Source: Thelephora terrestris
Lineage: Eukaryota > Basidiomycota > Agaricomycetes > Thelephorales > Thelephoraceae
Direction of reading: 5' to 3'
Length of the DNA stretch: 64,000 nt
Assembly (NCBI GenBank): GCA_015956445.1
Contig: WIUZ02000002.1
Span: forward strand, 1,178,001-1,242,000
The position numbers and the translations under genes were made by a program. The notes beneath the pieces are model-generated. The model saw nothing but the letters and a program-made list of their open reading frames with translations. It did not search any database and had not been told where the DNA came from. Positions 16,637-44,604 of this stretch are shown in pieces. Position 1 is the first letter of the stretch, and each line of letters opens with the position of its first letter.

Positions 16637-18521
16637 GGTTCAGCTATTTTTTCTCCATCGGTCATGGGGCGTGCAATGGTGACAAACTCCCATGGGTCAT
16701 GGGGCATGCAACGTTGTACAACAGTATGAGTTCCCTATGCTGGGTTGCCCAAGGGTATAGATTTCCCATGGGTCATGGGTTGTACAAGGGTATAGGTTTC
16801 CCATGGGTCATGGGTTGTACAATGGTATTGATTCCCCATGGGTCATGGGTTGTACAACACTATTAATTCTCCATGGGTCATGGGTTGTACAACAGTATTG
16901 ATTTCCCATGGGTCATGGGTTGTACAAGAGCATGGATTGTACAGGGGTGTCTGTTCTCCCTGGGGCATGGAACATATGCCTATTCTAGGAAAGGTCATCA
17001 ATCATGAATCACCCAACAAGGACATATTTGATGGATTCCCAAAATAGAAAAGTTTCCTGGGTTATATAACAAGCTGTCGACTTTGAGAGTAATCCACTGT
17101 TTGTATGCCCAATAGAATATCTCTATTTGGGGTCCTAACCTAAACCTAAACCTAAACCTAACCTAACCCTAACCTAAACCTAAATATAAACATAAACACA
17201 AACCTAACCTGACCTAAACTAAACCTAACCTAAATCTAAACCTAACATTACCTAATCCTCACCTAACATAATCTAACCTAACCTAACCTAACCTAACCTA
17301 ACCTAACCTAACCTAACCTAACCTAACCTAACCTAACCTAACCTAACCTAACCTAACCTAACCTAACCTAACCTAACCTCACCTAAACTAACCTAACCTC
17401 ACCTAAACTAAGCCTAAAGCTAGCCCGGCCTCACACAAAGTAGCCCAGCCAACTTATCCTGAAGTAGTCCATCTAATCTAACACCTACCTAACATGCCCT
17501 GTTTCAACTCAACCTCATGTATGTCAGCCTAAGCTAATTTTCCCAGTTACCAACACATGAGTTGGCTAACATAAACATAAATCAAACTGTAGCCCTCTTC
17601 CCCCTCACACATCCTGTGCACAATCATTACTCAAGCAAACCAGGCAAAAAAATCTAGTGGACCTATAATCTCAGTGGTTGAACTTGGCTGACAAACATGC
17701 TTGCTGGGTTATTGTTGTACATATGTGTGCCTGTGGGCTAGCAGATCCACTAAACTGTCAGTCTAGGTAGACTTGAGTAGTGATTGTGCAGAGTATGGGG
17801 GGGGGCTGCAGTTTGCTTTATGTTTCTGTGACCCAGCTCACATTTTGGTAACTGGAACAAGGTAGCTTAGGCTGGCATTTATTAGGTTAGGTTGAAACAG
17901 GGCATGTTAGGTAGGTGTTAGATTAGATGGACTACTTCAGGATAAGTTGGCTGGGCTACTTTGTGTGAGGCCGGGCTAACTGTAGGCTTAGTTTAGGTGA
18001 GGTTAGGTTAGGTTAGGTTAGGTTAGGTTAGGTTAGGTTAGGTTTAGGTTTAGGTTTAGGTTTAGGTTTAGGTTTAGGTTAGGACCCCAAATAGAGATAT
18101 TCTATTGGGCATACAAACAGTGGATTACTCTCAAAGTCGACAGCTTGTTATATAACCCAGGAAACTTTTCTATTTTGGGAATCCATCAAAGATGTCCTTG
18201 TTGGGTGATTCATGATTGATGACCTTTCCTAGAATAGGCATATGTTCCATGCCCCAGGGAGAACAGACACCCCTGCACAACCCATGCTCTTGTACAACCC
18301 ATGACCCATGGAGAATCTATACCATTGCACAACCCATGACCCATGGAGAATTAATAGTGTTGTACAACCCATGACCCATGGGAAACCTATAGCGTTGTAC
18401 AACCCATGACCCATGGAGAATCTATAGCGTTGTACAACCCATGACCCATGGGGAATCAATACCATTGTACAACCCATGACCCATGGGAAACCTATACCCT
18501 TGTACAACCCATGACCCACAT
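16637..18521. repeat. Palindromic minisatellite block X1
   Basis: Left arm: from agggttcagctattttttct (16637) through about ten variants of a roughly 40-base unit containing ccatgggtcatgggttgtac, then a CCTAA array. The right arm is the inverse: a TTAGG array, then inverted units (ttgtacaacccatgacccat). The centre is near 17700. The arms match over unique blocks too (cctaacatgccctgtttcaa against its inverse at 17889). Open reading frames here (repeated MGHGLYN or WVMGCT) are by-products of the repeat. X1 abuts X2 and its right arm is shorter than its left. Confidence 0.85.
17138..17412. repeat. Interstitial telomere-like (CCTAA)n array
   Basis: More than 20 near-perfect CCTAA repeats between 17277 and 17380, flanked by degenerate CCTAAA repeats. 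The mirror array (TTAGG/TTTAGG)n is at 17990-18083. Fungal telomeres are normally TTAGGG, so this is telomere-like, not a standard telomere, and it lies inside a palindrome far from any end of this sequence. Confidence 0.85.
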
Positions 18522-18854
18522 AGGGCTCAGCTATCTTTTCTCCATGGGTCATGGACCATACATCGTGACAATTCTCCATGGGTCATGGGCCATGCAACGT
18601 TGTACAACACGTTGTACAACCCATGACCCATGGAGAAAAGATACCATTGTACAACCCATGACCCATGGGTAATGGAATAGTATCCGTTGCCCATGCCCCA
18701 TGGGTTGTACAATGGTATCTGTTGCCCATGCCCCATGGGTTGTATAACACTATCCCTTCCCCATGCCTCATGGGTTGTACAATGCTATCCTTTCCCCATG
18801 GGGCATGGGTTGTGCAACACTATCCAATTCCCATTGTCAGGGTTGTGGGCCTGC

Positions 18855-19478
18855 TTACTGTTTAGGGGACGCTAGAGGATTGGTGGACGGGTGAGGGGTG
18901 TCGGGACGAGTATTGAGAGGGGTTCCAGGAGTAGAAGTGAGAGGAGGAGGAATATCAAGCGAGAGTGGTGACTCGGATTGATAAGGGTGGAACGGCGAGT
19001 GATAGTCGTGGCAGAACTGATTTAGTTGCTGAATAAACGGGTCGAAGTCATGGTCGCTAAGGCGTTCAAAGCTCACGAGGTATTCTAGAACAGAATAAGG
19101 TAATTCAGTTGGAATTTCCCACCACAAGACAATAATGGCAGGAGAGTGGGTATGAACGTTAGTGGTGAGATGAATGCGGGGGTTAGGGAAGTAAAAGGCA
19201 GGGCTTATGCTGAAGTAAACAGTTGCTAGGACGCTTTCAGTGACGTCTGAGTTCCAGAGGAACTGATGGTCTGCTCCTAATAAGAACGGGGGAGTGGTGA
19301 CTCCGGAGTCGAGTGCTGCGAAGGGATGATAGTAGGGGAAATGAGTTAGTAAACCGGCAGTTCGGTTTACTTGAAGACTTCTGATGAGTTTATACTCCCA
19401 GACAGATCTTCTAGCGTCGGGTATAACGGGACGTTGAACTGGACTTGTGGAAGGGAAGGGGTTAGGAGCTCTGAACAT
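18855..19478 (-). CDS. Element family 1 ORF A (207 aa, unknown)
   Basis: Starts MFRAPNPFPSTSP and is homologous to 31220-31843 and to the frame beginning at 24636. Conserved stretches include VNRTAGLLTHFPYY, PPFLLGADHQFLWNSD, THSPAIIVLWWEIPTELPYS and EYLVSFERLSD, with a Pro/Ser/Thr-rich tail. There is no signal peptide, zinc finger or enzyme motif that I recognise. Protein-level conservation between copies suggests selection at least until recently. The gene ends about 20 bases from the element border. Confidence 0.7.
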   Translation of the reverse strand: MFRAPNPFPSTSPVQRPVIPDARRSVWEYKLIRSLQVNRTAGLLTHFPYYHPFAALDSGVTTPPFLLGADHQFLWNSDVTESVLATVYFSISPAFYFPNPRIHLTTNVHTHSPAIIVLWWEIPTELPYSVLEYLVSFERLSDHDFDPFIQQLNQFCHDYHSPFHPYQSESPLSLDIPPPLTSTPGTPLNTRPDTPHPSTNPLASPKQ

Positions 19479-20093
19479 ATACTAGCAGGAGGATTCCTGC
19501 TTGAAAGAGTCAGAAAGGAGTAAGGCACGAGGAGGATTCCTTGGCTTACTTTGTTTATTGAGATGGTAGGTAGAGGAGTACAGAAGAGATTGAAAATGGG
19601 GGAAAGAAAGGAGCGAACGCTCTTCCTTATATACCCAATCCTCTACAGGAGTCATTATTCTACAACGAACCAAACAGCGATCAACATGGTCTGTGCGTAG
19701 TTTAGGGCAGGGTAGATGAGTCAGAGAAGTGGGACCTTTAGAGCGACAAATGACGAACTACAATAGGGGAACAATAGCGAATGAGTTGTTTAAGAGTACA
19801 ATGGGGATTTCTCATGATCGATGGGGATTTCCCTCGTTTCATGGTAGCAGTAGAAGACTGATGGGGATTTCCCGTGATTGATGGGGATTTCTCGGATTTG
19901 ATGGGATCGTGATTGGGGCTGAGGGTTCGTTTATCCTAGTTGAGACGTCAATGAGTAATAGGTTATTGTTTTCCCTTTCCAGTTTTCTTCGAGTCAGGAT
20001 GTATTTAAGTCAGAGGGATTAATGATCGTTCCCCTCATCGTCTCTCTTCCACTCCCACCAACCAATCACTACTCCTCCAAACCATTTACTAAA

Positions 20094-20708
20094 ATGTCTG
20101 CTTATACTGCCAACGCTGCCCTTCTCAACGCCGCTGCCACCCCCTTTGACCTCGCCCCGTCTTTTGAGACGGATGCTCCCTTCGACGTGGAGCAACACTT
20201 GTATGACTCCCCCGCCAACATCGCTCACGATAACCAGGTAGCGGTGGACTTCTTGATTGCTCACGACGCTCCTGCCGAGTTTTGGGAACAAGCGGGATAC
20301 GAAGACCCCAGCAAGACCAAACGATGGGCTCCTGGAGTTACCCCCATGCAGGATGCGATGGAACAAGAGAGGGAGGACAGAATCTTGAAGTTGGAGAAGA
20401 GGATGGATGTTATGTATGTCGTCGTCAACAGTCTCAATGAAGACTTCTCTCACTTTGCTTTGGAACACTGGAAACCTTTCCAGGAATCTCTCCTCAGGTA
20501 CTTCGGTCATCGATGCCATGGAGCGTACTGCACCGATGCAACTCCTCACTCCCCCATCATCCCTCTGCCGTCTCCAGGACCAGGGAGTCCCTCTTCCTCA
20601 GTCCCCTCCTTGGAGTCCTGTTCCGAGTCGTCAGTTGGTGAAGAGGACCGAGAAGAAAAGTCACAAGAGTCCAATGACTCGTACTGGACAATGTTGTCGT
20701 CCCTCTGA
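20094..20708 (+). CDS. Element family 1 ORF B (coiled-coil, unknown)
   Basis: Starts MSAYTANAALLNAAATPF, about 90 bases after a gtatttaag TATA-like motif. The middle holds conserved APAEFWEQAGYEDP and a helix EQEREDRILKLEKRMDVMYV predicted as coiled coil, then FSHFALEHWKPFQESLLRYF and an acidic Ser-rich tail. Homologues are on the minus strand at 23321-24048 and 29824-30561; the C-terminus differs in length between copies. No known domain is recognised. It faces away from ORF A across a shared promoter region of about 600 bp. Confidence 0.7.
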   Translation: MSAYTANAALLNAAATPFDLAPSFETDAPFDVEQHLYDSPANIAHDNQVAVDFLIAHDAPAEFWEQAGYEDPSKTKRWAPGVTPMQDAMEQEREDRILKLEKRMDVMYVVVNSLNEDFSHFALEHWKPFQESLLRYFGHRCHGAYCTDATPHSPIIPLPSPGPGSPSSSVPSLESCSESSVGEEDREEKSQESNDSYWTMLSSL

Positions 20709-23320
20709 CAAGTCACGGCAGGTTCGAATGAAGTTGAAGGTGGAGGTAGCGGGTCTTCAGGATTGTTATGGGTTTGCATTAGTGAGCGAGGCGTTGATGG
20801 ACGTGAAGCGGGAGATGCATGATAGTCTGTTTCATGATGTGTTGGGATGCAGGGAGTGCTGGCAGGATCCGGTAATGCGAGTGTACTCGTACTGTCCTCA
20901 GAGCGTACATAACCCTCACCACTTCGCTCATCGTTGTCCGTTTGCTCAGGACTGTGCTTGTGATGTGGACCCTTTTGTCCTTGTTTAAGTTTGTAGTTCT
21001 TACTGGCCGCCTTTGTACTTTTACTACTACGAATAAGACCAATGTCTTGAATTACTTGTGTGATCTTGGCTACTATGTCACGCGTTTGTGACACCCATGC
21101 CCCATGGGTTGTACAACACTATCCATTTCCCATGCCCCATGGGTTGTACAATGCTATCCAATTCCCACGCCCCATGGGTTGTACATCACTATCCAATTCC
21201 CATGCACCATGGGTTGTACAACAGCATCTTGTGCCCATGGGGCATCAGTTGCAGAATGGTGTCCTTTCTCCATGTCCCATGGATTATATCACTATTCCAG
21301 GAAAGGAGATACTTTATAAATCAACCATTAGCTGTGTGAATTTGAAAAAAATTAGACTCTGTTTGTATGCATGATAGACCATATATCAGTTTGTGGCTCT
21401 AACCTAATGGAAACTAAACTTAACCTGATAATAGCCACAACCTAATCCTCAATCTAACCTGAGCCAATGTAAACTTGACCCATGAACCTAAGCCTAACCT
21501 AATCCTAAACCTGGTCTAATCCCAAATCTAACCCTAACCTGACCTGACCTAACCTAACCTAACCTTATCTGACCTGAACCTACACCTAACCTAACCTAAC
21601 CTAACCTAACCTATACCTAAACTAACCTATACCTAATCTAACCTGGTATGGGCAAACCTAACCTACCTATCATGACCTGTTTCAGCCTAATGTCATGTAT
21701 GCCAGCCAAGACTAACTTCACCCAGTTGCAAACATATGACTTGGGTCACAGGACCATAAAGCAAACTGCAGTCCCCTCACTCTGTGCCCAACCATCCCAT
21801 AAGCCCACAGATGCACATATATATCATCAGCAACCCAGCATCATGCTTATCACCCATGTTCAACCACAAACCACTCTCACCCTTTTTTCTGTGCTATCTC
21901 AAAGCCTAACCATAACTCTAGCTCACCCACCCATATTAATCCTTGTGTGGAATATGTTATAAGTCTATAAACCATATGTTTGTAGGCCACTTGCTTGTGG
22001 GCCCAAGAAGGTGGATGAACTTGAGTTGTGGTTTGTCTGTGAGATGGCACAGAACAAAGGGTGAGAGTGGTTTGTGGTTGAACATGGGTGATAAGCATGA
22101 TGCTGGGTTGCTGATGATATATATGTGCATCTGTGGGCTTATGGGATGGTTGGGCACAGAGTGAGGGGACTGCAGTTTGCTTTATGGTCCTGTGACCCAA
22201 GTCATATGTTTGCAACTGGGTGAAGTTAGTCTTGGCTGGCATACATGACATTAGGCTGAAACAGGTCATGATAGGTAGGTTAGGTTTGCCCATACCAGGT
22301 TAGATTAGGTATAGGTTAGTTTAGGTATAGGTTAGGTTAGGTTAGGTGTAGGTTCAGGTCAGATAAGGTTAGGTTAGGTTAGGTCAGGTCAGGTTAGGGT
22401 TAGATTTGGGATTAGACCAGGTTTAGGATTAGGTTAGGCTTAGGTTCATGGGTCAAGTTTACATTGGCTCAGGTTAGATTGAGGATTAGGTTGTGGCTAT
22501 TATCAGGTTAAGTTTAGTTTCCATTAGGTTAGAGCCACAAACTGATATATGGTCTATCATGCATACAAACAGAGTCTAATTTTTTTCAAATTCACACAGC
22601 TAATGGTTGATTTATAAAGTATCTCCTTTCCTGGAATAGTGATATAATCCATGGGACATGGAGAAAGGACACCATTCTGCAACTGATGCCCCATGGGCAC
22701 AAGATGCTGTTGTACAACCCATGGTGCATGGGAATTGGATAGTGATGTACAACCCATGGGGCATGGGAATTGGGTAGTGATGTACAACCCATGCCCCATG
22801 GGGAAAGGATAGGGTTGTACAACCCATGGGGCATGGGAATCAGATAGTGTTGTACAACCCATGACCCATGGGAAATGGATAGTGTTGTACAACCCATGCC
22901 CCATGGGGAATGGATAGCGTTGTACAACCCATGACCCATGAGGAACAGATAGTGTTGTACAACCCATGCCCCATGGAGAATGGATAGCATTGTACAACCC
23001 ATGAGGCATGGGGAAGGGATAGTGTTGTACAACCCATGGGGCATGGGCAACAGATACCATTGTACAACCCATGGGGCATGGGCACCGGATACTATTCCAT
23101 TACCCATGGGTCATGGGCTGTACAATGGTATCTTTTCTCCATGGGTCATGGGTTGTACAACGCGTTGTACAACATTGCATGGCCCATGACCCATGGAGAA
23201 AAGATAGCTGAACCCTGTGAGTGATGAGGGTTGTGTACGCTCTGAGGGCAGTACGAGTACACTCAAGTTACCGGATCCTGCCAACACTCCCTGCATCCCA
23301 TCACATCATGAAACGAACTG

Positions 23321-24048
23321 TCATGCATCTCCCGTTTCACGTCCGTCAACGCCGTGCTCATTAATGCAAACCCATAACGGTCCTGGAGACCCGCTACTTC
23401 CACCTTCAACTTCATTTGAACTTGACATGACTTGTCGGAGGGACGACAGCGTTGACCAGTACGAGTCATTGGACTCTTGTGACTTTTCTTCTGGGTCCTC
23501 TCCACCATCTGACGCCTCGGAACAAGACTCCAAGGAGGGGACTGAGGAAGAGGGACTCCCTGATCGTGAAGGTGGCGGAGGGACAATGGGGGAGTGAGGA
23601 GCTGCGTCGGTGCAGTATGCTCCGTGGCACCTATGGCCGAAGTACCTGAGGAGAGATTCCTGGAAAGGTTTCCAATGTTCCAAGGCAAAGTGAGAGAAGT
23701 CGTCATTAAGACTATTAACGACCACATACATGACATCCATCCTCTTCTCCAACTTCAAGATCCTATCCTCCCTCTCTTGCTCCATGGCGTCTTGCATGGG
23801 AGTAACCCCAGGAGCCCACCTACGAGTCCAGTTGGGATCTTCGTACCCAGCTTGTTCCCAGAACTCGGCAGGAGCATTGTGGGCGGTCAAGAAGTCGATC
23901 GCGACTTGGTTGTCATGGGCGATATTGGCAGGGGAGTCGTAAAGGTGTTGCTCCATGTGGATGGGAGCATCTGTCTCCACAGAAGGGGAGAAGTCAAAAG
24001 GGGTGGCGGCAGCATTGAGCAGCGCGTTGTTGGCAGCAAAGGCAGACA
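23321..24048 (-). CDS. Element family 1 ORF B, copy 2
   Basis: Homologue of 20094-20708 and 29824-30561, starting MSAFAANNALLNAAATPF and keeping APAEFWEQAGYEDP and the coiled-coil helix ILKLEKRMDVMYVVVNSL. The acidic tail is longer than in copy 1 and ends VDGRETGDA, as in copy 3. Function unknown. Confidence 0.65.
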
Positions 24049-25092
24049 TAGTAAGCAAGAGGGGTTTATGAGAGGGGTAGTAGCGGGTGATTTGATGGGA
24101 GTGGAAAAGAGACAATGAAGGGAAAGGACCAATACTCCCCTGGATTATATATGTCCAAATCAATAGGACACCAAAAGAGGAGAACAATAAGCCACCACTC
24201 ATTAAAATCCTAATTAGGATAAATGAACCCTCAGCCCCAATCCAGATCCAATCAAAACTCGAGAAATCCCCAGCACGCTTCCATTACTACCGTAAAACAT
24301 GAGAAATCCCCTAAATGCTTCCATCAGTTCAATCCTCTTATTGTTCCCATATTCGTAATTACCATTCGTCGTCCTAAGTTCCCCTGACCTGACTCATTCA
24401 ACCTACCCTAAACTACACACAGACCATGTTGATCCCTGTTTTGTTCGTTGTAGAATTATGACTCCTGTAGAGGATTGGGTATATAAGGAAGAGCGTTCGC
24501 TCCTTTCTTTTCCCCATTCTCAATCTCTTCTGTACTCCTCTACACACAATCTCAATAAACAAAGTAAGCTGAGGAATTCTCCTCACACCTTACTCCTTTC
24601 TGACTCATTCAAAGCAGGAATTCTCCTGCTAGTGTATGTTCAACGCCCCTAACCCATTCCCCTCTACCAGCCCCATCCAACGTCTGGTCATACCAGACGC
24701 CAGAAGATCTATCTGGGAGTATAAACTCATCAGAAGTCTTCAAGTAAACCGAACCGCCGGTTTACTTACTCATTTCCCTTATTATCGCCCCTTTGCGGCT
24801 CTCAACTCCAGAGTCACCACTCCACCTTTTCTCCTAGGAGCCGACCATCAGTTCCTTTGGAACTCAGATACTACTGAGAGTGTCCTAGTGACCGTCTACT
24901 TCAGTATAAGTCTGGCCTTCTACTTCCCTAACCCTCGCATTCACCTCACCACTAACGTTCACACTCATTCCCCTGCTATTATCGTCTTGTGGTGGGAGAT
25001 TCCAACTGAACTACCTTACTCAGTCCTAGAATATCTCGTAAGCTTCGAACGCCTCAGTGACCAAGACTTTGAACCGTTCATCCAGCAACTGA

Positions 25093-25986
25093 CACTGGGG
25101 GCAAGGGGTCAAATACCTGGTGGGTACATGCTGAACACATTGTGATCACAGTCAACAAGTGATCACAATGTGCCCAGTGGGGGAAATTTAAATACATTCA
25201 AAATGTGCCTGGCCATGTGAGTCCAATGTGCCCAGTAGGCACATTTTGATTGCAATCACAATGTACCCATCAATGTGATCTCAATGTGCCCACTGGGGAC
25301 ATTTTGATTGTGATCTCAATGTGCCTGCTGTGCACATGTTAATTTATTTCACAATGTTGTCCACAATGTGTCCAGCATGTGGCTGAGCCACTCATTCAAA
25401 ATTCTTTTAAAGATGATCCAGTGATGTGTCCATAATGTCCCCAGGGGGTTCTTTTTGAAGTAATCACAATGCAATCTCAATATTGTTCAATTTCACCATG
25501 AACTTTCAAAGAAATCACTATGTGTATGGCTGTACACATTCTAGACACATCACTGGATACTTTGTGAAAGAATTTTAAATGAGTGGCTCAGCCACATGCT
25601 GGACACATTGTGGACAACATTGTGAAAGAAACTATTATGTAATGAGCTGGGTACATTGGGAACACATTGATGGGAACATTGTGAAATAAATTAACATGTG
25701 CACAGCAGGCACATTGAGATCACATTGATGTGTACATTGAGATCACATTGATGTGTACATTGTGATCGCAATCAAAATGTCCCCAGTGGGCACATTGAGA
25801 TCACATTGATGGGTACATTGTGATTGCAATCAAAATGTGCCTACTGGGCACATTGGACTCACATGGCCAGGCACATTTTGAATGTATTTAAATTTCCCCC
25901 ACTGGGCACATTGTGATCACTTGTTGACTGTGATCACAATGTGTTCAGCATGTACCCACCAGGTATTTGACCCCTTGCCCCCAGTG
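25093..25986. mobile_element. CACTG-ended foldback DNA element (894 bp)
   Basis: The two halves are inverse copies over several hundred bases, starting CACTGGGGGCAAGGGGTCAA and ending with its inverse. The 3-bp duplication TGA flanks it (25090-25092 and 25987-25989), and the sister copies of the host element lack the insertion. The arms are made of shuffled caatgtgcccagtgggcaca-like motifs. A 3-bp duplication with CACT ends fits a non-autonomous CACTA (CMC/EnSpm) element. No transposase is present. Confidence 0.8.
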
Positions 25987-26177
25987 TGAGTCAGTTTTGT
26001 CAAGACTACCACTCATCTGTTCACCCTTATCAAACCGAGTCACCACTCGCTCTTGACATTCCTCCCTCCCTCACCTCCACACCCGGAACCCCCCTCAACG
26101 TTCGACTCGACACTCCTCACCTGTCCACTAATCCTCTAGCGCCCCTTTAAACAGTAAGCAGGCCCACAACCCTGACA

Positions 26178-26595: not shown

Positions 26596-29012
26596 TGTCA
26601 GGCCGACGCGACCTCTACAGTTCAATAGCACTCTTGCTATCCAAACCTATCACACGCAGGGGTCAAACACACAGTTATAACCCTGTTGCAAACCCAGGGA
26701 TATCGGAAGTCTCTTCACAGACTAGATTGGAGAAGAGGAGAAAGAAGGAGACAAGGGTCTTCAGGCACTCTTGCTCTAAGCACACAGCAGTAGAGGTCAT
26801 GGAGAGTCTGATGATAACAAATCTTAGGAGTACAGGCTAAACTACTCTGAGTATATATACTACTTAGATTTGTGATGTGACAGTGACATGTAACTACCCT
26901 AAAGATACAAACACAGACAAACATGGTCCGTGCGCAGCACTGCATGGTCTGTGCGTTACGTGGTGACTAATGCTACAAATTATCAGCTGATAAACGAAAG
27001 TGTGGCGGCCAATAGCAATTTGAGAGCATTACAGAGCAATTACAAAGCATGACGTAGCCTGGGAATATTCGGAAGGAATGTGGGTGTGACTGACTAACAG
27101 CCAATGGCAAAAGGGGAGCATATGACTAAGAAATAGGGGCATATGATGTCATGTGGGTCATGCGCAGTAAACAATAGAAATGATGACTCAACTCCTGAGT
27201 CGTGAAAGGGGCGTGGCATTTGGTATATAACCAAAGGGGGTTGGATGACTGGGTCTCTCAACAAACCTCCCTTTGTTACACACTCACAACATGCCTCGTG
27301 CTTCTACTCGCAATCCCACTCGTCGTTCCTCCTCCTACTCTCCTGTTCAGGAGAGTAACTACAACATCGACCGTTTCTCCCATGCCTGTCGGGATCCATC
27401 CCGTCCTTATCCCGCCTTGGGAGCTATCATGGATCGCACCGCCACCGCCGACCCAAATGAGGGGTTCTCTGATTTAGGTGGGGGCTCTGCTTGTGCGTTC
27501 CGGTTTAGGAAACCAAGCTAACTCCTTTTAGGTTTTAGGGACTTTCTCCAGGCCGCTCGAAGGGTGTCTCGGCGCAAGTTGGCGCGCATCGAGACCAACC
27601 CATATGCGAACGAACTCCTCAATAGGGGTGTTGAGTTCGTGACTGAATCCAACGAGACCTTCAACTCCGTGTTGGAGGCCAGCGTTCTCCATACGGGGAA
27701 CATTGGGTCCATGCTGATGGACGAAGTGGCTCACGTCAACGAGCGCATCGATGGTCGTCGTGAGGAGATTGAAGCGTTGGAGAACTGGAAGGAGGATATG
27801 CAAGGCGTCATTCATGGACAGGAAGATACCGTTGTTCGTCAGGGGGCCGACATTGATTTACTGAAGGTAAATGTGGGGTCGGGAGATAATTGGCTTCTCT
27901 AACCCAACATTTCCTTTTAGGGAGAAGTGACCACTCTCAAGGACTTGGTCCGGGCTCTGGTTACCAAGACCGGAGAATTGGAGGACGATAAGGTAACGGG
28001 TAGGGGTTGAAGGTTTTTAATGTCTTCTAACCCTATTCGTTTTAGGTTTGCCTTAGTTGTCGTATCTCCGAGTTGACCGGAGAAGTCCGGGATCTTCAAA
28101 GGAGGTGCAATGAGCCGGAGGTTCAAGTTGAAGAAGAGGAGCCGGAGGTTCCGTATCGGGCCGGGTCACCGATCATCCCTAATCGGGTTGAGTCGCCGCC
28201 CGCTCGTTTGTTGGTCCGTCATGAGAACAGGTTGGTTCCCATTGATGATGAGGTCATCGAGATCGGGAGCGACGAATTCTATCAGAACGTAGGAGTCGTT
28301 CGTAGGGACACTCCTCGTCCTGAGTTCGTTTCTACTCCTTGGGGTAGTCGCCGTCAATGGCCTGCTCTGGAGTATGATCCGTACGCCGAGTTCGTTCCCG
28401 ATAGCGAACCAAACTCTGATACGGAGCTTCCAGATTACGATGACTTGTCGGACGTGGACCCAAACGAGATCCAGGAGCAGAACTGGTTGAATGAGGAGTT
28501 GGTGAGATCGGCATTGGAAGTAGTACAAAGGATCCAAAGAGATATTGATTAGATAACTCTTTTGTACTGTTGGCTTTCAATGAATCTTCTATATTGTCTA
28601 TTGCGCGTGATCCATGAGTCGTAAAGCATAATGGTTTTCATAAGTCCAATCCAAGGGTCAGATTAATAAGCCGGTTGACTTCTGCGAGAGGTCAGCGCGC
28701 GACACTTATTAATACATCCCTTGTTGTCGGTAGCCTGAATATCTACTAGTCGTCCAGGGGCAACGGAGGGCCAGGTAGGGGGGATCTTCATATGAAGGTC
28801 CGCCGGTACATGTTCACGTATTATACCTCGGGTCTTCTGGGGTATCTTGACTAGTAGCACGTTCCACGTATTGGACTTTGAGTTGTTAAACATAGGGCAT
28901 ACTGCATAATAAACAGTTTACCGCCATGTTTAGGGCAGGGCACCAACTGACTTAGTGGTGATGAGGCGTTAAATAAAGGAAATGAAAGGGGGTAAACGGC
29001 GAAATCATCACA
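26596..29012 (+). mobile_element. TG..CA element family 2, copy 1 (2417 bp; LTR-like ends, spliced gene)
   Basis: Begins TGTCAGGCCG and ends CATCACA, flanked by the 5-bp duplication CGCAC (26591-26595 and 29013-29017). An inverted copy of almost identical length lies at 35867-38282 with its own duplication, so both borders are firm. It holds two TATA-like boxes (gtatatatac at 26852; ggtatataacc at 27221) and one four-exon gene. No reverse transcriptase or integrase is seen. LTR-type ends with 5-bp duplication suggest a very long solo LTR carrying a gene, or a non-autonomous passenger. It looks whole and young. Confidence 0.85.
27291..28552 (+). CDS. Element family 2 gene (four exons, coiled-coil, unknown)
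   Basis: Exons 27291-27477, 27532-27866, 27921-27992 and 28046-28552; each intron of about 50 bases ends in ccttttag or cgttttag. The protein starts MPRASTRNPTRRSSSYSP (basic, disordered), then a long helical region (RRKLARIETNPYANELL.., ENWKEDMQGVIHGQED.., GEVTTLKDLVRALV..) likely to form coiled coils, a RCNEPEVQVEEEEPE hinge, and an acidic tail with SDTELPDYDDLSDVDPNE ending IQRDID. No known domain. Both copies keep frame through four exons, which argues for selection or very recent spread. A structural or Gag-like role is possible but unproven. Confidence 0.75.
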
Positions 29013-29552
29013 CGCACTAAAAATAGGTCTCATGACCTTGACGACCCCTTTACAAACCCCTTTACGACCCTGATGACTCATTTATGACATCACGATAGCG
29101 ACCAACCCTGGACCCTGATCACACATGTGGACAGTCACATCACAGTCTCCTAACCGGAGGAAGGAATCACCGTTATTTGGAAGGAGTGCCTTAGACTCCT
29201 TTTGTTTAGCCAAGCGAATGTGGAAGTAGCTGTTAGCGTGAAACATCGGCGAATCTGTAATCCCTCATGTCCCATGAGTCTAGGCTCGACCTCCTCATGT
29301 TCGGACGTACGTTGAGGTTGCTACTAGTCCGTGATGCTGTTACCGCCTACTGACAACAAGGGATGATGCATGGTCCCTTATCTCGGAGCTGCTCGAAAAT
29401 TGCATGAAGCAATGAGAGGTTTCCACCTGACCCTTGGGTGTGATCCCCAGGTACTAACTTTCATGACCCCATGCCCCTCTTTCTTTTAGGACTAGTGTTA
29501 TCTTTACCCCTATGTTTCATGCGAACATTTCTTATCTTTTATGCAATCCTTC
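29013..29552. other. Repeat-island sequence with no gene
   Basis: No ORF of note. It resembles retroelement flank (cctactgacaacaagggatg is partly echoed in the family 2 element at 28716 and 36150). It continues on the other side of the 29553-31863 insertion. Confidence 0.3.
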
Positions 29553-29823
29553 TGTCACGAACGCGTGACATGGTAACAAAGATTGCACAAATAATCAAAG
29601 ACATTGGTCTTATTCAAACTAATAAAAGTACAAGGAGAACTTATGACAGTCGCAAATCTAAACCAATACAAAGGGATCTACGTCGCAAGCACAGTCCTGA
29701 GCAAAAGGGCAACGATGAGCAAAGTGGTGCGGATTATGCACGCTCTGAGGACAGTAGGAATACGCTCGCGTTACCGGGTCCACCCAACACTCCTGACATC
29801 CCAACACATCATGATACAAACTA

Positions 29824-30561
29824 TCATGCATCTCTCGCTTCACGTCCGACAAGGCCTCGCTCACTAATGCGAACCCATAGCGGTCTTGGAGACCCGCCAC
29901 TTCCACCTTCAACTTCATCCGAACCTGACGTGACTTGTCGGAGGGACGACAACGTTGACCAGAACGAGTCATCGGACTCTTGCGGTTCTTCTTCTTCTGG
30001 GACCTCTCCACCATCTGGCGAACTGGGGCAGGACTCCAGGGAGGGGATGGAGGGAGAGGAACGCCCTGATCCCGGTGGCGGCGAAGGGACGACTGGGGAC
30101 TTGCAAGGGGGGTCAGTGCAATAAGCCCCATGGCACTGGTGTCCGAAATATCGGAAGAGAGATGCCTGGAAAGGTCCCCAATGTTCCAAAGCAAAATGAG
30201 AGAAGTCCTCATTCAAGCTGTTCATGATGACGTACATAAGGTCCACACGTTTCTCCAGCTTCGCAATCCTATCCTCCCTCTCCCTCTCCATGGCGTCCAA
30301 CAAGAGAACGGCTCCAGGGTGTTGAGCCTGAACCTGAGGCCTAGAGAGCCGGGGGTCTTTGTACCCAGCTTGTTCCCAGAACTCGGCGGGAGCATTATGA
30401 GCGGTGAGGAAATTAATGGCGACCTGGTTGTCATGAGCGATGTTGGCGGGGGAGTCATACAAATGTTGCTCCACGTCGAAGGGAGCATCCGTCTTGAAGG
30501 ATGGAGTGAAGGGGGTGGTGGTGGCGTTGAGAACGGCGTTGTTGGCAACAAAAGCAGACAT
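29824..30561 (-). CDS. Element family 1 ORF B, copy 3
   Basis: 245 residues starting MSAFVANNAVLNATTTPF. It keeps FDVEQHLYDSPANIAHDNQV, APAEFWEQAGYKDP, the helix EREREDRIAKLEKRVDLMYV and FSHFALEHWGPFQASLFRYF. Differences from copies 1 and 2 are spread over the protein, so the copies are not recent duplicates of each other. Function unknown. Confidence 0.7.
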   Translation of the reverse strand: MSAFVANNAVLNATTTPFTPSFKTDAPFDVEQHLYDSPANIAHDNQVAINFLTAHNAPAEFWEQAGYKDPRLSRPQVQAQHPGAVLLLDAMEREREDRIAKLEKRVDLMYVIMNSLNEDFSHFALEHWGPFQASLFRYFGHQCHGAYCTDPPCKSPVVPSPPPGSGRSSPSIPSLESCPSSPDGGEVPEEEEPQESDDSFWSTLSSLRQVTSGSDEVEGGSGGSPRPLWVRISERGLVGREARDA

Positions 30562-31219
30562 AGTAAGAGTAAGTGTTTGGTGGGGAGAGTAGTGGTGGTG
30601 ATTGTGGGAGTGGAAAAGGGACGATGGAGGGAACGATCATTAATTCCCCTGACTTAAATACATCCTGACTCAAAGGAAAACCGGAAAGGGAAAACAATAA
30701 CCCATTATCCATTAAAGTCCGAATTAGGATAAACCAACCCTTAACCTCGATCGCGATACCATCAAACCCAGAGAAATCCCCATCAATCATGGGAAATCCC
30801 CACCACGCTTCTATTGCTACCATTTATCCAGAGAAATCCCCATTGATCACGGGAAATCCCCATCACGCTTCTATTACTACCATGAAACACGAGAAATCCC
30901 TGAATGCTTCCATCGACTCGCGCCTCTACTGTTCCCGTATTAGTAACTACCATCTGTCGCTCTAAGTCCCCCCCCATTCTGACTCATCTACCCTACCCTA
31001 AACTACGCACAGACCATGTTGATTCCTGTTTGATTCGTTGTAGAATAATGACTCCTGTAAAGGATTGGGTATATAAGGAAGAGCGTTCGCTCCTTCTTTC
31101 CCCCATTCTCAATCTCTTCTGTACTCCTCTACCCATAACCTGAATAAAAGTAAGCTGAGGAATTCTCCTCACATCTTACCTCTTCTGACTCATTTTAGCA
31201 GGAATCCTCCTGCCAGTGT

Positions 31220-31843
31220 ATGTTCAGTGTCCCTAATCCTTTCCCTTCTACCAGCCCAGTCCAGCGACCAGTCGTCCCCGACGCTAGAAGATCTATCTGG
31301 GAGTATAAGCTCATCAGAAGTCTTCAAGTAAACCGAACCGCCGGTTTACTCACCCATTTCCCTTACTACCGACCCTTTGCAGCTCTCGACGCTGGAGTTA
31401 CCACTCCTCCCTTTCTACTAGGGGCGGATCATCAATTCCTTTGGAATTCAGATCTTACTGAGAGCGTCCTTGCGACCGTCTACTTCAGTATCAGTCCGGC
31501 CTTCCACTTCCCCTCTCCACGTGTTCATCTCACAACTAATATTCATACTCATTCTCCGGCTATTATCGTTCTTTGGTGGGAAATCCCAACTGAGTTACCT
31601 TATTCTGTCATAGAATATCTCGTCAACTTCGAACGTCTTAGCGACCAAGACTTCGAACCGTTCGTGCAGCAACTCAATCAGTTCTGCCAAGACTATCACT
31701 CGCCCGTTCACCCCTGTCAGACCGAGTCACCTCTCTCTCTCGATATCCCTCCTCCCCTCGTCTCCACACCCGGAACCCCCTTCAAAACCAGACCCGACAC
31801 CCCTCACCCATCCGCTAATCCTCTAGCGCCCCACAAACAGTAA
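31220..31843 (+). CDS. Element family 1 ORF A, copy 3
   Basis: 207 residues, the same length as copy 1, starting MFSVPNPFPSTSPVQRPV and ending NPLAPHKQ. The core PPFLLGADHQFLWNSD and IVLWWEIPTELPYS is unchanged from copy 1. It starts about 150 bases after the TATATAAGG box and lies on the strand in which the element reads TG..CA with the box first. No known domain. Confidence 0.7.
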   Translation: MFSVPNPFPSTSPVQRPVVPDARRSIWEYKLIRSLQVNRTAGLLTHFPYYRPFAALDAGVTTPPFLLGADHQFLWNSDLTESVLATVYFSISPAFHFPSPRVHLTTNIHTHSPAIIVLWWEIPTELPYSVIEYLVNFERLSDQDFEPFVQQLNQFCQDYHSPVHPCQTESPLSLDIPPPLVSTPGTPFKTRPDTPHPSANPLAPHKQ

Positions 31844-31868
31844 GCAGGCCTACAACCCTGACACCTTC

Positions 31869-32617
31869 ACACGCTAGTAAGGCCCTTTGTCCTTTATTCT
31901 CCCACACGCCATATTTGTTCGCTTCCCTTACTTAGTGTTCCCACACTCCTTATCTCCCTTTGTTCTATCTTGATAAGGGTATATTAGGGTATTGACGTCA
32001 TGGCCACTCCTTTAGTATAAGTAGCAACTGTGGCTGTATCGTAGTACCTTAGTTTTGTTACCTCAGGAAATCCTCTGCCCTTCTCAGCCCAGTTGCAGTT
32101 AAGGACAAGTCAGAGTTTCTTGTTTGATCCAAGACATCCCCCATCTGCTCTCCCTCCCGCTCTGCGTGTCAACTGCGCCTTGTAACTATAGGATCTCAGC
32201 ATTTATATTAGAACACCTCGAGCGACCAGTCAATCACCTGGTGGAGTCATCAATCCTGTTGTAGGGATAAACCCTTGCTTGTTAAACCGAACAAAGTACA
32301 GTTTAGGTTGGGTTTCTCTTTAGGATTTCGACCTGACTTGTAGTGACCTCGGACAAACTACCGGAAGAATAGAGAAGTGATCTTTCTCTCACAGCTAGTT
32401 GGACTAGTGAGTACTCTGCGGAGTCGGCTCAGTGCACTGGTAGTTGTTGGGGTAGAGTGGCCCTGACAGAACCCTGCTCACCCTGTGGAGTTGTTAGTCA
32501 AGTTCATAGATCACTCAACCAGCCTGCTTAGCTTCTATACACTTAGTCTCTAAGCGAACCAACTGGGTCTAGTTACCTCTTGTATAGAACATAACACTAC
32601 ACCACCCACGAGCACGA
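31869..32617. other. LTR-like leader sequence, no gene
   Basis: Contains a TATA-like tttagtataagtagcaactg (32012) and oligopyrimidine tracts, but no ORF. It looks like old LTR or leader sequence of an unidentified retroelement; the other border was not found. Confidence 0.3.
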
Positions 32618-35866: not shown

Positions 35867-38282
35867 TGTGATGATTTCGCCGTTTACCCTCTTTCATTTC
35901 CACTATTTAACGCCTCATCACCACTAAGTCAGTTGGTGCCCTGCCCTAAACACGGCGGTAAACTGTTTATTATGCAGTACGCCCTATGTTTAACAACTCA
36001 AAGTCCAATACGTGGAACGTGCTACTAGTCAAGATACCCCAGAAGACCCGAGGTATAATACGTGAACATGTACCGGCGGACCTTCATATGAAGATCCCCC
36101 CTACCTGGCCCTCCGTTGCCCCTGGACGACTAGTAGATATTCAGGCTACCGACAACAAGGGATGTATTAATAAGTGTCGCGCGCTGACCTCTCGCAGAAG
36201 TCAACCGGCTTATTAATCTGACCCTTGGATTGGACTTATGAAAACCATTATGTTTTACGACTCATGGATCACACGCAATAGACAAAATAGAAAGAAGATT
36301 CATTGGAAGCCAACAGTACAAAAGAGTTATCTAATCAATATCTCTTTGGATCCTTTGTACTACTTCCAATGCCGATCTCACCAACTCCTCATTCAACCAG
36401 TTCTGCTCCTGGATCTCGTTTGGGTCCACGTCCGACAAGTCATCGTAATCTGGAAGCTCCGTATCAGAGTTTGGTTCACTATCGGGAATGAACTCGGCGT
36501 ACGGATCATACTCCAGAGCAGGCCATTGACGGCGACTACCCCAAGGAGTAGAAACGAACTCAGGACGAGGAGTGTCCCTACAGACGACTCCTACGTTCTG
36601 ATAGAATTCGTCGCTCCCGATCTCAATGACCTCATCATCAATCGGAACCAACCTGTTCTCGTGACGGACTAATAAACGAGCGGGCGGCGACTCAGCCCGG
36701 TTAGGAATGATCGGCGACCCGGCCCGATACGGAACCTCCGGCTCCTCTTCTTCAACTCGGACCTCCGGCTCGTTACACCTCCTCTGGAGATCTCGGACCT
36801 CTCCGGTCAACTCGGAGATACGATGAGTGAGGCGAACCTAAAGGAATAGGGTTAGAAGATAACAAAAACCTTCAACCCCTATCCCTTACCTTATCGTCCT
36901 CCAACTCTCCGGTCTTAGTAACCAGAGCCCGGACCAGATCCTTAAGGGTAGTTACCTCTCCCTAAAGGAAATGTTGGGTTAGAGAAGTCAATTATCTCCC
37001 AACCCCACATTTACCTTCAACAAATCAATGTCAGCCCCCTGCCGAACGATATTATCCTCTTGCCCATGAATGACACCTTGCATATCCTCTTTCCAATTCT
37101 CCAAGGCCTCTATCTCCTCGCGACGACCATCGATGCGCTCATTGACGTGAGCCACTTCATCCATTAACATGGACCCAACGTTCCCCGTATGAAGAACGCT
37201 GGCCTCCAACACAGAGTTGAAGGTCTCATTAGCTTCGGTCACGAACTCAACACCCCTATTGAGGAGTTCGTTCGCATACGGATTAGTCTCGATACGCGCC
37301 AACTTGCGCCGAGACACCCTACGAGCAGCTTGGAGAAAGTCCCTGAAACCTAAAAGGAGTTAGCTTGGTTTCCTAGATCAGAATGCGCAAGCAGGGCCCC
37401 CACCTAAGTCAGAGAACCCTTCCTTAGGGTCAGCGGTGGCGGTCCGGTCCATAACGGCTCCCAAAGTGGGATAAGGGCGAGACGGATCACGGCGGGCATG
37501 GGAGAAACGGTCGATGTTGAAGTTATTCTCCTGAACAGGAGAGTAAGAGGTAGAGCGACGGGTAGGAACACGAGTAGAGGCACGAGGCATGTTGGCTGTG
37601 TAACAAAGGTGGGTTTGTTGGAAGACCAGTCATCCAACCCCCTTTGGTTATATACCAAATGCCACGCCCCTTCCACGACTCAGGAGTTGAGTCATCATTT
37701 CTATTGTTTACTGCGCATGACCCATATGACATCATATGCCCCTATTTCTTAGTCATATGCTCCCCTTTTGCCATTGGCTGTTAGTCAGTCATACCCACAT
37801 TCCTTCCGAACATTCCCAGGCTACGTCATGCTTTGTAACTGCTTTGTAATGCTCTCAAATTGCTATTGGCCGCCACACTTTCGTTTATCAGCTGATAATT
37901 TGTAGCATTAGTCACCACGTAACGCACAGACCATGCAGTGCTGCGCACGGACCATGTTTGTCTGTGTTTGTATCTTTAGGGTAGTTACATGTCACTGTCA
38001 CATCACAAATCTAAGTAGTATATATACTCAGAGTAGTTTAGCCTGTACTCCTAAGATTTGTTATCATCAGACTCTCCATGACCTCTACTGCTGTGTGCTT
38101 AGAGCAAGAGTGCCTGAAGACCCTTGTCTCCTTCTTTCTCCTCTTATCCAATCTAGTCTGTGAAGAGACTTCCGATATCCCTGGGTTTGCAACAGGGTTA
38201 TAACTGTGTGTTTGATCCTTGTGTGCGATAGGTTTGGATAGCAAGAGTGCTATTGAACTGTAGAGGTCGCGTCGGCCTGACA
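35867..38282 (-). mobile_element. TG..CA element family 2, copy 2 (2416 bp), inside Harbinger
   Basis: Inverse copy of 26596-29012, one base shorter and nearly identical. It is flanked by its own 5-bp duplication ATCAT (35862-35866 and 38283-38287). Independent duplications show two separate insertions and not a segmental copy. It looks whole. Very young, judged by the scarcity of differences and by lying within the Harbinger element. Confidence 0.88.
36331..37590 (-). CDS. Element family 2 gene, copy 2
   Basis: Same four-exon gene as 27291-28552 on the minus strand: MPRASTRVPTRRSTSYSP.., then NPYANELLNRGVEFVTEANE, the coiled-coil region, and SDTELPDYDDLSDVDPNE to IQRDID. Differences are few and mostly conservative (for example HTGNVGSM for HTGNIGSM). 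All introns are retained, so the element does not pass through this gene's spliced mRNA. Function unknown. Confidence 0.75.
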
Positions 38283-40559: not shown

Positions 40560-42008
40560 CTAATACCACTCCTCTTGGACATGGAACCTGCTAACACGGT
40601 CACGCTTTTTTTGGTCAGCGAACAGGATATGTTCGAATCCCTCCCACATCCAATCACTGCCATCTTCACGCCAGATTGGAACGTAGACGTTCCTGATTTG
40701 ATTGATCCCAACCGACCGCATTTGTAAATTGTGGAGGCGGAAACATGTCTCAATGAGATCCACACGCTTATCCATGTCCTCAATCCCCAAGGGTATCCTC
40801 AACCGACCAAAACTTCCCTGCAACTCTCGCATGCCCCATTCAGCTGTTTGGCGATAGGAGAGGATTGACCGTGAGAGCTCAAGGGCACGTCTTCGCTGAG
40901 CAGCACCCATCGGGAGTTTTTCGCCAGCCTTGAGTGGGACACGGATCTTTCCAGAAACCCGGTCATTATCCTGTGGGAATGCGGAGTCAGCAACAAGAGA
41001 GAACCCATCGGGTGTTTCGTTTTCTAACTTCACATAAATCCCCTCGGCAATGCGCAAGTCGTGCCAGCTGCCTGGACAATTTGTACGGCAGGCGATGATC
41101 TCTCCTGTGTGAAATATGAGCGTTTGAACGCCAACTGCCAGGACACCATTCAACATCCACAAACCTTTCGAGCTGAAGACAATCACAGAGCTAATAAAGT
41201 GACTATGTAGCCACCCATTGAAGGTTGCATTCTCAATCTCCATGTCAGCAGACACTTGGCATGGCAGGTTGAGGCCGTCGATTGACCCGAAAACACCTTG
41301 AAGGAGCGGGTGTCGCATTGAAACATACCCACTAAGCTCAAGGAACTCTTCACCTTGTGGCCAGGCAATGGCAGCACTGGGCATCTGCCTCAGTACCTTG
41401 ATGAGGATGGAAAGAGCAAACCACAGATACCTTGACACAGTTGAGGGTACGAGTGCAAAGATCTGTTGGAGGCTGACCTGGCGCATGGTTGATGAAAGCC
41501 AGTGAAGCACCAAGCCCAGACCACCCTCAGCATCTAGCAACCTCCTCCCAGCCCGAGGGTAACCTGCTGTATGTGTATCAGTGCAGGGAATCATGTGTGA
41601 ATACCAGAGATTTCCAAAACCGGCCTCGAGGATTGCGCGGAAGGTGGATGTGTTGATCCCCATTGTGGTGATGAAAGCGCGGTCTTCATAGCGTCTGTAC
41701 AGGCGTTTCCAGGGTGTTCCAAAGTGTGGGTTAGGGAGGAGGTTTGGACGTCCCAGGTACTGTCGACGAGGGCGCCGGTTTTCGATGGCCCAGGCGTGAT
41801 CCTCGTTCGAACCGATGATCAGAACCGCCGCGGCAAGTCGCATCTGACCTTGGGCTTCGGTTTCATGCTCAAGTTCAAGCCATTGCTGTAAGAGGAGGGT
41901 ATGGAAGAAGAGGTCGTCGTCGTCCATGGCTAAGGGTGGCTTGCCACGTAGCCCGAACCTCTGCAACCATAATACACGATCTATTTGATGAAATCCTACG
42001 GACAGCAA
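40560..42008 (-). CDS. Harbinger DDE transposase
   Basis: 482 residues without introns; MDDDDLFFHTLLLQQW at residue 28 may be the true start. Catalytic blocks of DDE_Tnp_4 are all visible: GSIDGLNLPC (first Asp), NCPGSWHDLRIAEG and SLVADSAFP (second Asp region), and AEWGMRELQGSFGRLRIPL (Glu). A helical N-terminal region with TMGINTSTFRAILE precedes them. The frame is fully open and all acidic residues are present, so it could be active, cutting at the GGGTGACTATCC ends and leaving 3-bp duplications. It faces ORF1 convergently with about 290 bp between. Confidence 0.9.
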   Translation of the reverse strand: MLSVGFHQIDRVLWLQRFGLRGKPPLAMDDDDLFFHTLLLQQWLELEHETEAQGQMRLAAAVLIIGSNEDHAWAIENRRPRRQYLGRPNLLPNPHFGTPWKRLYRRYEDRAFITTMGINTSTFRAILEAGFGNLWYSHMIPCTDTHTAGYPRAGRRLLDAEGGLGLVLHWLSSTMRQVSLQQIFALVPSTVSRYLWFALSILIKVLRQMPSAAIAWPQGEEFLELSGYVSMRHPLLQGVFGSIDGLNLPCQVSADMEIENATFNGWLHSHFISSVIVFSSKGLWMLNGVLAVGVQTLIFHTGEIIACRTNCPGSWHDLRIAEGIYVKLENETPDGFSLVADSAFPQDNDRVSGKIRVPLKAGEKLPMGAAQRRRALELSRSILSYRQTAEWGMRELQGSFGRLRIPLGIEDMDKRVDLIETCFRLHNLQMRSVGINQIRNVYVPIWREDGSDWMWEGFEHILFADQKKRDRVSRFHVQEEWY

Positions 42009-42091: not shown

Positions 42092-43188
42092 GTGTAAGGA
42101 AACGAATTAAATCAAATCGCATTAACATCGACGTAGGCCAGTTACTGGACCGATCCCCCCGCTACAGTGTGTACTAATCGTAAAGAGGAACTACTTTCAG
42201 AGTAGGCAGACGGAAAGGACCGCGGTGAAGTCCAAGCTGATCAAGGCAGACACCACGGCGAGAAGTCCGACGCTGCGAAGAGAGTTAGCGAGAGATGTGG
42301 GGCAGCGGGAAGTGAAGAACTCACGCAATGGAGAGGAGGGCTGCTAAACCGGCGCACAGTTCGACAACCACAGCCAAGCAAGCGGCGAGGGCGACGTTGA
42401 CAGAAGCGTAGATGTCGATCAAGCCGTCACACCCGATGCACACATCGACATGGGCGGACAGAGCGGCTACAATTTTCTATAACAGCGGGTGAGTGGGCGG
42501 AAGGAGCACGAGAACTCGACCACTTACGACGACAACCTCGACGACAACCTCAACGAGGGCGGTGGAGGGAACTCCACCGTCACACCCTTTAACGACGGCC
42601 GTGCAAGCATCAATAGCGACAACCAGCTCGGCGACGACGGTGGCGGTGCAATCGTTGTCGGAGCACGAGGTGAACTTGGGAAGGATGGTGTCGCAGTGGT
42701 TGCTGAGGGTGGTGAAGGCGCTCTGGATGTCGTTGGTGGACCTCTTCGCAACGATCTCGGGGACAGCTCCAGCGATAGCCATGGCACCAGCGGCGAGGAC
42801 AGTGAAGATGGTGGAGAAACGCATGGTGAAGAGAGGCTGGAGAGAGGCTGGAGAGGCTGGAGAAGGTTACTTGGGATGAGTGCGACTGGAAGTGTCGATG
42901 AGATTTTTGACCAGAGCACCGTGCAGCTTTTATACTCAATCCCGGAACACGAGGTCGAGCCTCCGTCGGCGCTCCCCAAGCGAATGGGATACGTCCCCGA
43001 AAGACAAATACATTCATTAATCTCCTTTTGGTCGCGGTTGAGCTCTAGCCGGGCCAGTGTCTCAGCATTGGTACGTCGGCCAAGCGAGTCGAAAGTACGA
43101 CAGTGTTCCGAACGAACTTTCGTGACCGCGGGGGTTGCAGATCAATCGATCATCAGCAAACCGGCAGGCTCGCCTGTTCGGTAAGAAG
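42092..43188. repeat. Giant inverted repeat, arm 1 (1.1 kb)
   Basis: The inverse of 44241-45338. By eye the arms are essentially identical, with one single-base indel near 42150/45307. The inner border is sharp: both arms read ..ctgttcggtaagaag and then diverge. The outer border, gtgtaaggaaacg, starts inside the 3-bp duplication of the Harbinger element. The arm carries a complete secreted-protein gene with promoter. Confidence 0.92.
42197..42824 (-). CDS. Small secreted cysteine-containing protein, copy A
   Basis: Mirror copy of 44605-45232 with the same three exons on the minus strand (42528-42824, 42325-42476, 42197-42272) and the same 174-residue product. It begins with a signal peptide MRFSTIFTVLAAGAMAIAGA and has ten cysteines, none in the CC doublets of hydrophobins. 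The promoter TATAAAA is mirrored at 42928-42934. Both copies appear functional and would give twice the dose of the same protein. See the other copy for details. Confidence 0.8.
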
Positions 43189-44240: not shown

Positions 44241-44494
44241 CTTCTTACCGAACAGGCGAGCCTGCCGGTTTGCTGATGATCGATTGATCTGCAACCCCCG
44301 CGGTCACGAAAGTTCGTTCGGAACACTGTCGTACTTTCGACTCGCTTGGCCGACGTACCAATGCTGAGACACTGGCCCGGCTAGAGCTCAACCGCGACCA
44401 AAAGGAGATTAATGAATGTATTTGTCTTTCGGGGACGTATCCCATTCGCTTGGGGAGCGCCGACGGAGGCTCGACCTCGTGTTCCGGGATTGAG

Positions 44495-44501
44495 TATAAA
44501 A
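44495..44501 (+). promoter_or_regulatory. TATA box of secreted-protein gene copy B
   Basis: TATAAAA, 104 bases before the ATG at 44605, followed by a pyrimidine-rich leader with ctccagcctctccagcctct repeats. The same arrangement is mirrored upstream of copy A. Confidence 0.6.
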
Positions 44502-44604
44502 GCTGCACGGTGCTCTGGTCAAAAATCTCATCGACACTTCCAGTCGCACTCATCCCAAGTAACCTTCTCCAGCCTCTCCAGCCTCTCTCCAGCCTCTCTT
44601 CACC

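Follow-up and report, generated by a model that had tools for sequence, protein, structure and literature searches.

A two-gene repeat unit with LTR-like ends in Thelephora terrestris, probably the coding LTR of a Ty3/gypsy-type retrotransposon

A unit of about 2.2–2.35 kb, referred to here as family 1, carries two divergent genes, A and B, and is present in approximately 300 copies in the 40.6-Mb genome of Thelephora terrestris. We consider it probable that this unit is the coding long terminal repeat (LTR) of a Ty3/gypsy-type (chromovirus-like) retrotransposon that is now seen as solo LTRs only. Positions given without a contig refer to the window, i.e. the whole stretch of 64,000 nucleotides that was analysed (C12:1178001-1242000).

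Results

Borders and target duplications of the family-1 unit

Three copies of the unit lie in the window (Table 1). The borders of copies 1 and 3, and the duplications on both sides of each, are those that a first-pass annotation of the sequence had given, and copy 3 is a single unit with its own duplication. The annotation had also counted three ORF-bearing copies; this holds for copies 1 and 3, which are complete, but copy 2 is 5'-truncated, ends at 26177 and is interrupted. Its 3' end was also recovered in the end-pattern search described below (C12:1204158-1204177). The insert within copy 2, of ~0.9 kb, has 235-nt inverted ends that are 99% complementary.

Table 1. Features of the window and their positions.
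Feature	Position	Strand	Remarks
Family-1 unit, copy 1	18835-21093	-	duplication CCCAT at 18830-18834 and 21094-21098
Copy 1 ORF A, 207 aa	18855-19478	-	
Copy 1 ORF B	20094-20988	+	intron 20414-20483
Family-1 unit, copy 2	23220-26177	+	5'-truncated; interrupted at ~25088-25991
Family-2 unit	26596-29012	- (..CCTGACA end as 3' end)	duplication CGCAC; inside family-3 LTR sequence; multi-exon gene on +
5-bp target duplication CCTTC, left of copy 3	29548-29552	.	sequence and empty site
Family-1 unit, copy 3	29553-31863	+	LTR-like orientation, TGTCACG..AACCCTGACA
ORF B exon 2, spliced frame, Cys/His-rich tail	29658-30165	-	open reading
ORF B unspliced reading, 245 aa	29824-30561	-	open from MS start
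ORF B intron, 70 nt	30166-30235	-	GTACGT..CTTTCCAG
ORF B exon 1	30236-30561	-	open reading
TATATAAGG box (TATA box of family 1), upstream of ORF A	31070-31078	+	
Probable 5'UTR intron of ORF A	31150-31201	+	GTAAG..CTGAC..TTTTAG/CAG
ORF A, 207 aa	31220-31843	+	U5-like part of unit
5-bp target duplication CCTTC, right of copy 3	31864-31868	.	sequence and empty site
Family-3 LTR, 3' part, target of copy 3 insertion	31864-32468	+	94.6% to proven LTR
Family-2 unit, second	35867-38282	+	duplication ATCAT

The flanks of copy 3, joined with one CCTTC, aligned to family-3 LTR copies over 282–302 nt with 0–7 gap positions (12 loci, L004 and L023 being one place), and matched the LTRs of a full-length family-3 element (L042/L043) at 93.4% without gaps. 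Since the joined flanks form an unbroken family-3 LTR, the copy-3 insertion has a clean empty site. Joining the flanks of copy 1 likewise restored a 35-bp tandem array. The host of copy 1 consists of palindromic, foldback-like arrays of 35-bp repeats (CCCATGGGTCATGGGTTGTACAA type) at 16640-18850 and 21089-23200. Elsewhere in the window we observed a perfect 1066-nt inverted repeat (42123-43188 and 44241-45306, spacer 1052 nt) and, on the minus strand at 40563-42008, a 482-aa ORF with a DDE_Tnp_4 domain (E 4e-19), a DNA transposase gene.

The genome was searched with copy 3 as query (1-2311), yielding 397 first-look candidates, of which 40 were scored, and 51 matches; 34 of the 51 matches listed, copy 3 included, covered the full length. 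For alignment, we employed 34 different units with both ends intact, leaving out partial copies and an identical palindromic twin. This twin belongs to a locus with identical units in opposite orientation (L017, G000:C13:553186-558334); equal-scoring units in opposite orientation were also seen at G000:C7:891375/910953, and both cases suggest palindromic duplications in the genome.

Among 58 units read at both ends, 57 had TGTCA..TGACA ends, the sole exception (C12b) ending in CGACA. The 5-bp duplication around the single unit was perfect in 54 of the 58 (30/34 aligned units, 14/14 units from neighbour pairs and 10/10 from the ORF A list), near in three (L007 and L027 match at 4 of 5 positions, L030 at 4 with a shift) and absent from one, L021, the only full-length unit among the 34 without any duplication. 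L021 was considered as a unit adjoining internal retrotransposon sequence and rejected, as it is flanked instead by two pieces of one family-2 copy. The integrase-type signature of these ends and duplications, first proposed from the window, is confirmed, and the borders did not fail in other copies. Within the perfect duplications, G was favoured at the first position (22/54) and C at the last (25/54), a weak palindromic preference of the kind often seen with integrases. By eye, the terminal inverted repeat comprises only TGTCA/TGACA, about 5 bp.

The 5' end (20 bp) was found at 301 places genome-wide and the 3' end at 317, allowing up to 2 mismatches (1 and 0 places, respectively, for the reversed controls; the first 100 places per pattern were listed). 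One family-1 unit was nested inside another at L015.

Genes A and B

Of the 34 units, 29 have an ORF A that stays open for 199 aa or more. A genome search with ORF A gave 414 candidates, and 141 of the best-scoring 150 matches had no internal stop, a sample that leans towards intact copies because only the best-scoring matches were included. The TATATAAGG box that the first-pass annotation had placed before ORF A is indeed there; it lies to the right of gene B, where the 34 aligned units vary least. The accompanying AATAAA is less constant: a pattern scan found the exact motif absent from 12 of 34 units, including one unit at the edge of the scanned stretch and L017, whose sole match lies elsewhere. 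The signals of the probable 5'UTR intron, GTAAG and CTRAC, occurred in 34/34 units, CTRAC having been scored partly by reading the sequences. Two short stretches that resemble hairpins and each other, GAGGAATTCTCCTC and GCAGGAATCCTCCTGC, lie around this intron and immediately ahead of the ORF A start (unit positions 1598-1663; 31150-31215 of the window); they recur in varied forms in most of the copies inspected.

The back-to-back arrangement of A and B described earlier is conserved, but B is not a single ORF, as a 70-nt intron shifts its frame. This intron has the same length in all 34 units and runs from GTAYGT (GTACAT in one copy) to TTCAG or TCCAG; it explains the frame change, for which a programmed frameshift had been considered. 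Upon its removal, the frame is open to the end (274–279 aa) in 28 of the 34 units, and the sequences of three public gene models (P0038, P0040 and P0042) fit such removal. With the intron kept, 29 of 32 units have a reading of 230 aa or more from the MS start, mostly 242–247 aa; it is longest in L023 and L027 (294 and 297 aa), ends at ~204 aa in window copy 1, and is recognisable in relatives 35–40% identical to L027. Judged from these reading frames, optional use of the 70-nt intron would give two proteins.

Neither ORF A nor ORF B had a match reaching Pfam cut-offs (two hits below their cut-offs appeared in the first ORF A/B search) or a convincing match to PDB sequences, and the only relatives found in protein searches were T. 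terrestris proteins or proteins without an organism name. Annotation lists some A/B copies as hypothetical proteins of the host. Structure models were of too low quality to be used (mean pLDDT 53 for A and 48 for the B tail). By eye, B has a head resembling a coiled coil and a tail rich in Cys and His, while no obvious acidic catalytic triad was seen in the ORF A alignment.

Variation among the 34 aligned units was strongly periodic, with the third codon position prevailing, in A and in both B frames. The comparison of dN/dS between copies, which had been put forward as a test of function, revealed strong purifying selection, with ratios of means of 0.067 for ORF A (561 pairs), 0.111 for the B head (30130-30561, 558 pairs) and 0.084 for the B tail (29661-29960, 561 pairs). 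Controls on A gave 1.8 in a shifted frame and 4.0 in antisense, and where the B frames overlap both were under partial constraint (0.60 and 0.41). On a tree (FastTree, parsimony changes), dN/dS was 0.09–0.12 on terminal and 0.07–0.10 on internal branches, and the neutral share of synonymous changes on terminal branches was roughly 1–3%, a rough estimate given possible recombination among copies. Since dN/dS stays this low on terminal branches, the family-1 copies look young.

Search for a full-length family-1 element

The first-pass annotation had proposed that paired units flanking a gag-pol region would identify family 1 as an LTR. Such pairs were not found. The 179 unit places compared, a merged subset of the ~300 copies taken from top-scoring lists and judged by position only, bracketed none of 144 rve hits with two units of one strand, and 16 of the 144 had any unit within 9 kb. 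Because these lists are a top-scoring subset, a rare full-length element could be missed. Neighbouring units were on the same strand no more commonly than on opposite strands (28 vs. 31). Ten same-strand neighbour pairs were chosen as LTR-pair candidates; 14 of their 20 units were readable at both ends, and all 14 were separate insertions with their own duplication, the other six having one end absent from the stretch read. Seven end pairs spaced 5.3–6.4 kb apart were considered as longer autonomous versions and rejected, as they are units with other elements nested in them, in six cases family 3. In a diverged subfamily (L026), no pair with pol was seen, and one same-strand neighbouring pair (C23:501163-505285) is a possible candidate. 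A weak rve hit at G000:C13:647738-648016 (+), in a 763-aa open frame, lies ~1 kb from the unit at C13:649041-651346.

Other families with long units in the same genome

Families 3 and 4 are true LTRs of Ty3/gypsy elements. Family 3 (641 first-look candidates), repeatedly nested in family-1 units, is represented on C11 (96422-109036, L042/L043) by a pair of 100% identical LTRs of 3299 bp around a 6-kb interior with RVT_1, RNase H, Integrase_H2C2, rve, Chromo and zf-CCHC matches, flanked by the duplication ATCCT. For seven other elements with the same pol type, the outer ends were predicted from the C11 copy and only these ends were read: four had them at the predicted places with matching duplications, two formed one tandem with a common middle LTR and matching outer duplications, and in one (C4) only the 3' end was at the predicted place. 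In family 4, whose pol type has 1301 aa, the LTRs of a pair at C12:1325805-1337501 (L058/L059) measure 2934 bp, are 99.93% identical and are flanked by GTTTT. As their LTRs are 100% and 99.93% identical, the C11 and C12 elements are very recent insertions; of the two, a chromodomain was demonstrated for the C11 element alone. Long LTRs are not universal in this genome, since a third pol type has a 188-bp repeat.

Among the 40 scored family-4 candidates, a second pair was found on C5, 33 of 37 full-length rows lacked a same-strand partner, and two full-length elements stood among 35 insertions; perfect 5-bp duplications were present in five of six further copies. Compared with these two in 35, the absence of full-length elements from family 1 gave P 0.14 for 0/58 and P 0.026 for 0/179 by Fisher's test, the latter sample having been judged by position only.

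On the antisense strand of the family-3 and family-4 LTRs we observed strong codon periodicity whose phase shifts along the LTR (16 sequences including fragments and 7 sequences, respectively). Such phase shifts are expected of exons, and the antisense regions are apparently multi-exon. The proteins predicted from them are similar in parts (E 1e-10 and 5e-9), although the mirror frame of that stretch matches too (3e-6). In family 4 a TATA box lies at 2455, just right of the antisense coding region; in families 2 and 3, the TATA pattern employed had no match on the LTR-sense strand.

Family 2 consists of 2.42-kb units (307 first-look candidates), and both copies in the window are single with 5-bp duplications. 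Codon periodicity (9 sequences including fragments) marks a region that is apparently multi-exon, that by eye has coiled-coil character, and that is antisense if the unit is read with ..CCTGACA at its 3' end. In its single copies, duplications and codon-periodic region, family 2 resembles family 1. No relation was detected between family-1 A/B and the LTR-gene exons collected from families 2–4 (hhalign probability <1%).

Discussion

A coding LTR as the best reading

The first-pass annotation had left two options, very long LTRs that encode two proteins or a separate class of gene-carrying elements. Neither is proven, but the former has gained strong, albeit indirect, support, since families 3 and 4 are proven LTRs of 3.3 and 2.9 kb with antisense coding regions. 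Like these LTRs, family 1 has TGTCA..CCTGACA ends, 5-bp duplications and a length in the range of 2–3.3 kb, occurs mostly as single copies, and bears an antisense, codon-periodic region of intron-bearing appearance, to the right of which lies a TATA box, as in family 4. We regard a long coding LTR as the best reading because family 1 matches them in its ends, in the length of the duplication, in size class and divergent layout, and in the predominance of single copies. Family 1 differs from families 3 and 4 in the additional sense ORF A in its U5-like part, in that no full-length parent was found and in that its proteins were unrelated in the comparison made; the last two differences are the reason why we call it LTR-like rather than a proven LTR.

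In LTR orientation, the unit would comprise a U3 with the antisense gene B, a central promoter with the TATATAAGG box, an R region and a U5 holding ORF A, so that a full element would contain the A/B pair twice. The integrase would insert this element with a 5-bp duplication, and LTR–LTR recombination would then remove gag-pol and leave one LTR with both genes, a route by which gene-bearing solo LTRs could accumulate to hundreds. If expressed, A and B would probably serve as accessory factors of the element, the form of the B protein being selected by use of the 70-nt intron.

Weighing of other explanations

The single units may instead be mobile two-gene cassettes with LTR-like ends that never formed LTR pairs. 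An integrase or integrase-like transposase, e.g. from resident chromoviruses, would then move their DNA in trans, and the two genes, with optional splicing of one yielding two overlapping proteins, would serve the spread of the unit. We regard this as rather unlikely, though it has several observations on its side: a perfect or near duplication surrounds one unit in 57 of 58 cases, the 179 unit places contain no pair, and the copies look young and are mostly intact, so that it is more surprising for gag-pol to have vanished from all sites read. Further, all 34 units retain the intron signals of both strands, so neither strand's spliced RNA was the template; however, introns would be retained just as well if unspliced genomic RNA served as template. 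Single copies also prevail in families 3 and 4, true LTRs of similar layout, and no integrase gene is tied to the units in the list of rve hits, where the hit at C13:647738 lies ~1 kb from one. The inverted repeat of only ~5 bp at the ends speaks against such cassettes as well, since known integrase-type DNA transposons are unlike family 1 in their terminal inverted repeats.

That A or B is itself an undescribed transposase of a self-sufficient DNA transposon is very improbable. No other conserved genes were seen in the unit, and purifying selection on A and B extends to the terminal branches, but this explanation is at odds with the lack of Pfam and convincing PDB matches and with the failure to see an obvious catalytic triad in A by eye. 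Host genes or chance repeats without mobility, to which the conservation of A and B and the annotation of some copies as hypothetical host proteins might point, can practically be dismissed in view of the target duplications and the empty site, which refute them, together with the L015 nesting and the ~300 copies; no case emerged of A and B as host genes outside a mobile context.

Implications and comparison with known systems

LTRs are usually regarded as control regions without coding content. Coding-type variation within demonstrated LTRs was observed in families 3 and 4, and the same would apply to family 1 if it is an LTR. Coding regions maintained by selection are present in the two proven LTR families and, judging by resemblance, in two further ones. 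As an LTR gene survives the recombination that forms solo LTRs, hundreds of these could keep supplying element proteins. Coding solo LTRs would then not be merely dead remains, and their genes would offer a possible reason for very long LTRs. Gene annotation seems to pass over families of this kind: in protein searches A falls in a single T. terrestris cluster with 3 members, whereas ORF A has 150 scored matches in the genome.

Passages of PMC3087523, PMC10974842 and PMC7550596, the last of which names T. terrestris in connection with LTR elements, describe no LTR-carried genes. Phrase searches of open-licence papers gave no account of genes inside fungal LTRs, which is weak evidence of absence but fits the initial statement that no named fungal element has this layout.

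Outside fungi, the mouse mammary tumour virus (MMTV), an animal retrovirus, has its superantigen (Sag) gene in U3, on the sense strand only. If family 1 is an LTR, Sag and the family-1 genes would be alike in that a protein gene lies inside the LTR and is present twice per provirus, whereas Sag is confined to the sense strand and U3. The HBZ gene of HTLV-1 is transcribed antisense from the 3' LTR, with its coding part mostly outside the LTR; family-1 B would resemble it as an antisense, spliced, LTR-linked regulatory gene, yet HBZ is not fungal. Ginger-type DNA transposons encode an integrase-like transposase of their own and end in long inverted repeats. They share with family 1 the single unit, integrase-like movement and TG..CA-like ends, but neither an integrase-like transposase (Pfam, A/B) nor long inverted repeats (by eye) were found in family 1. 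Finally, LTR retrotransposons of bdelloid rotifers carry additional ORFs (ORF3) of the element (PMC5408684); the passages on them make no mention of LTR-borne genes, and what they would have in common with family 1 is that both are ORFs captured by LTR elements.
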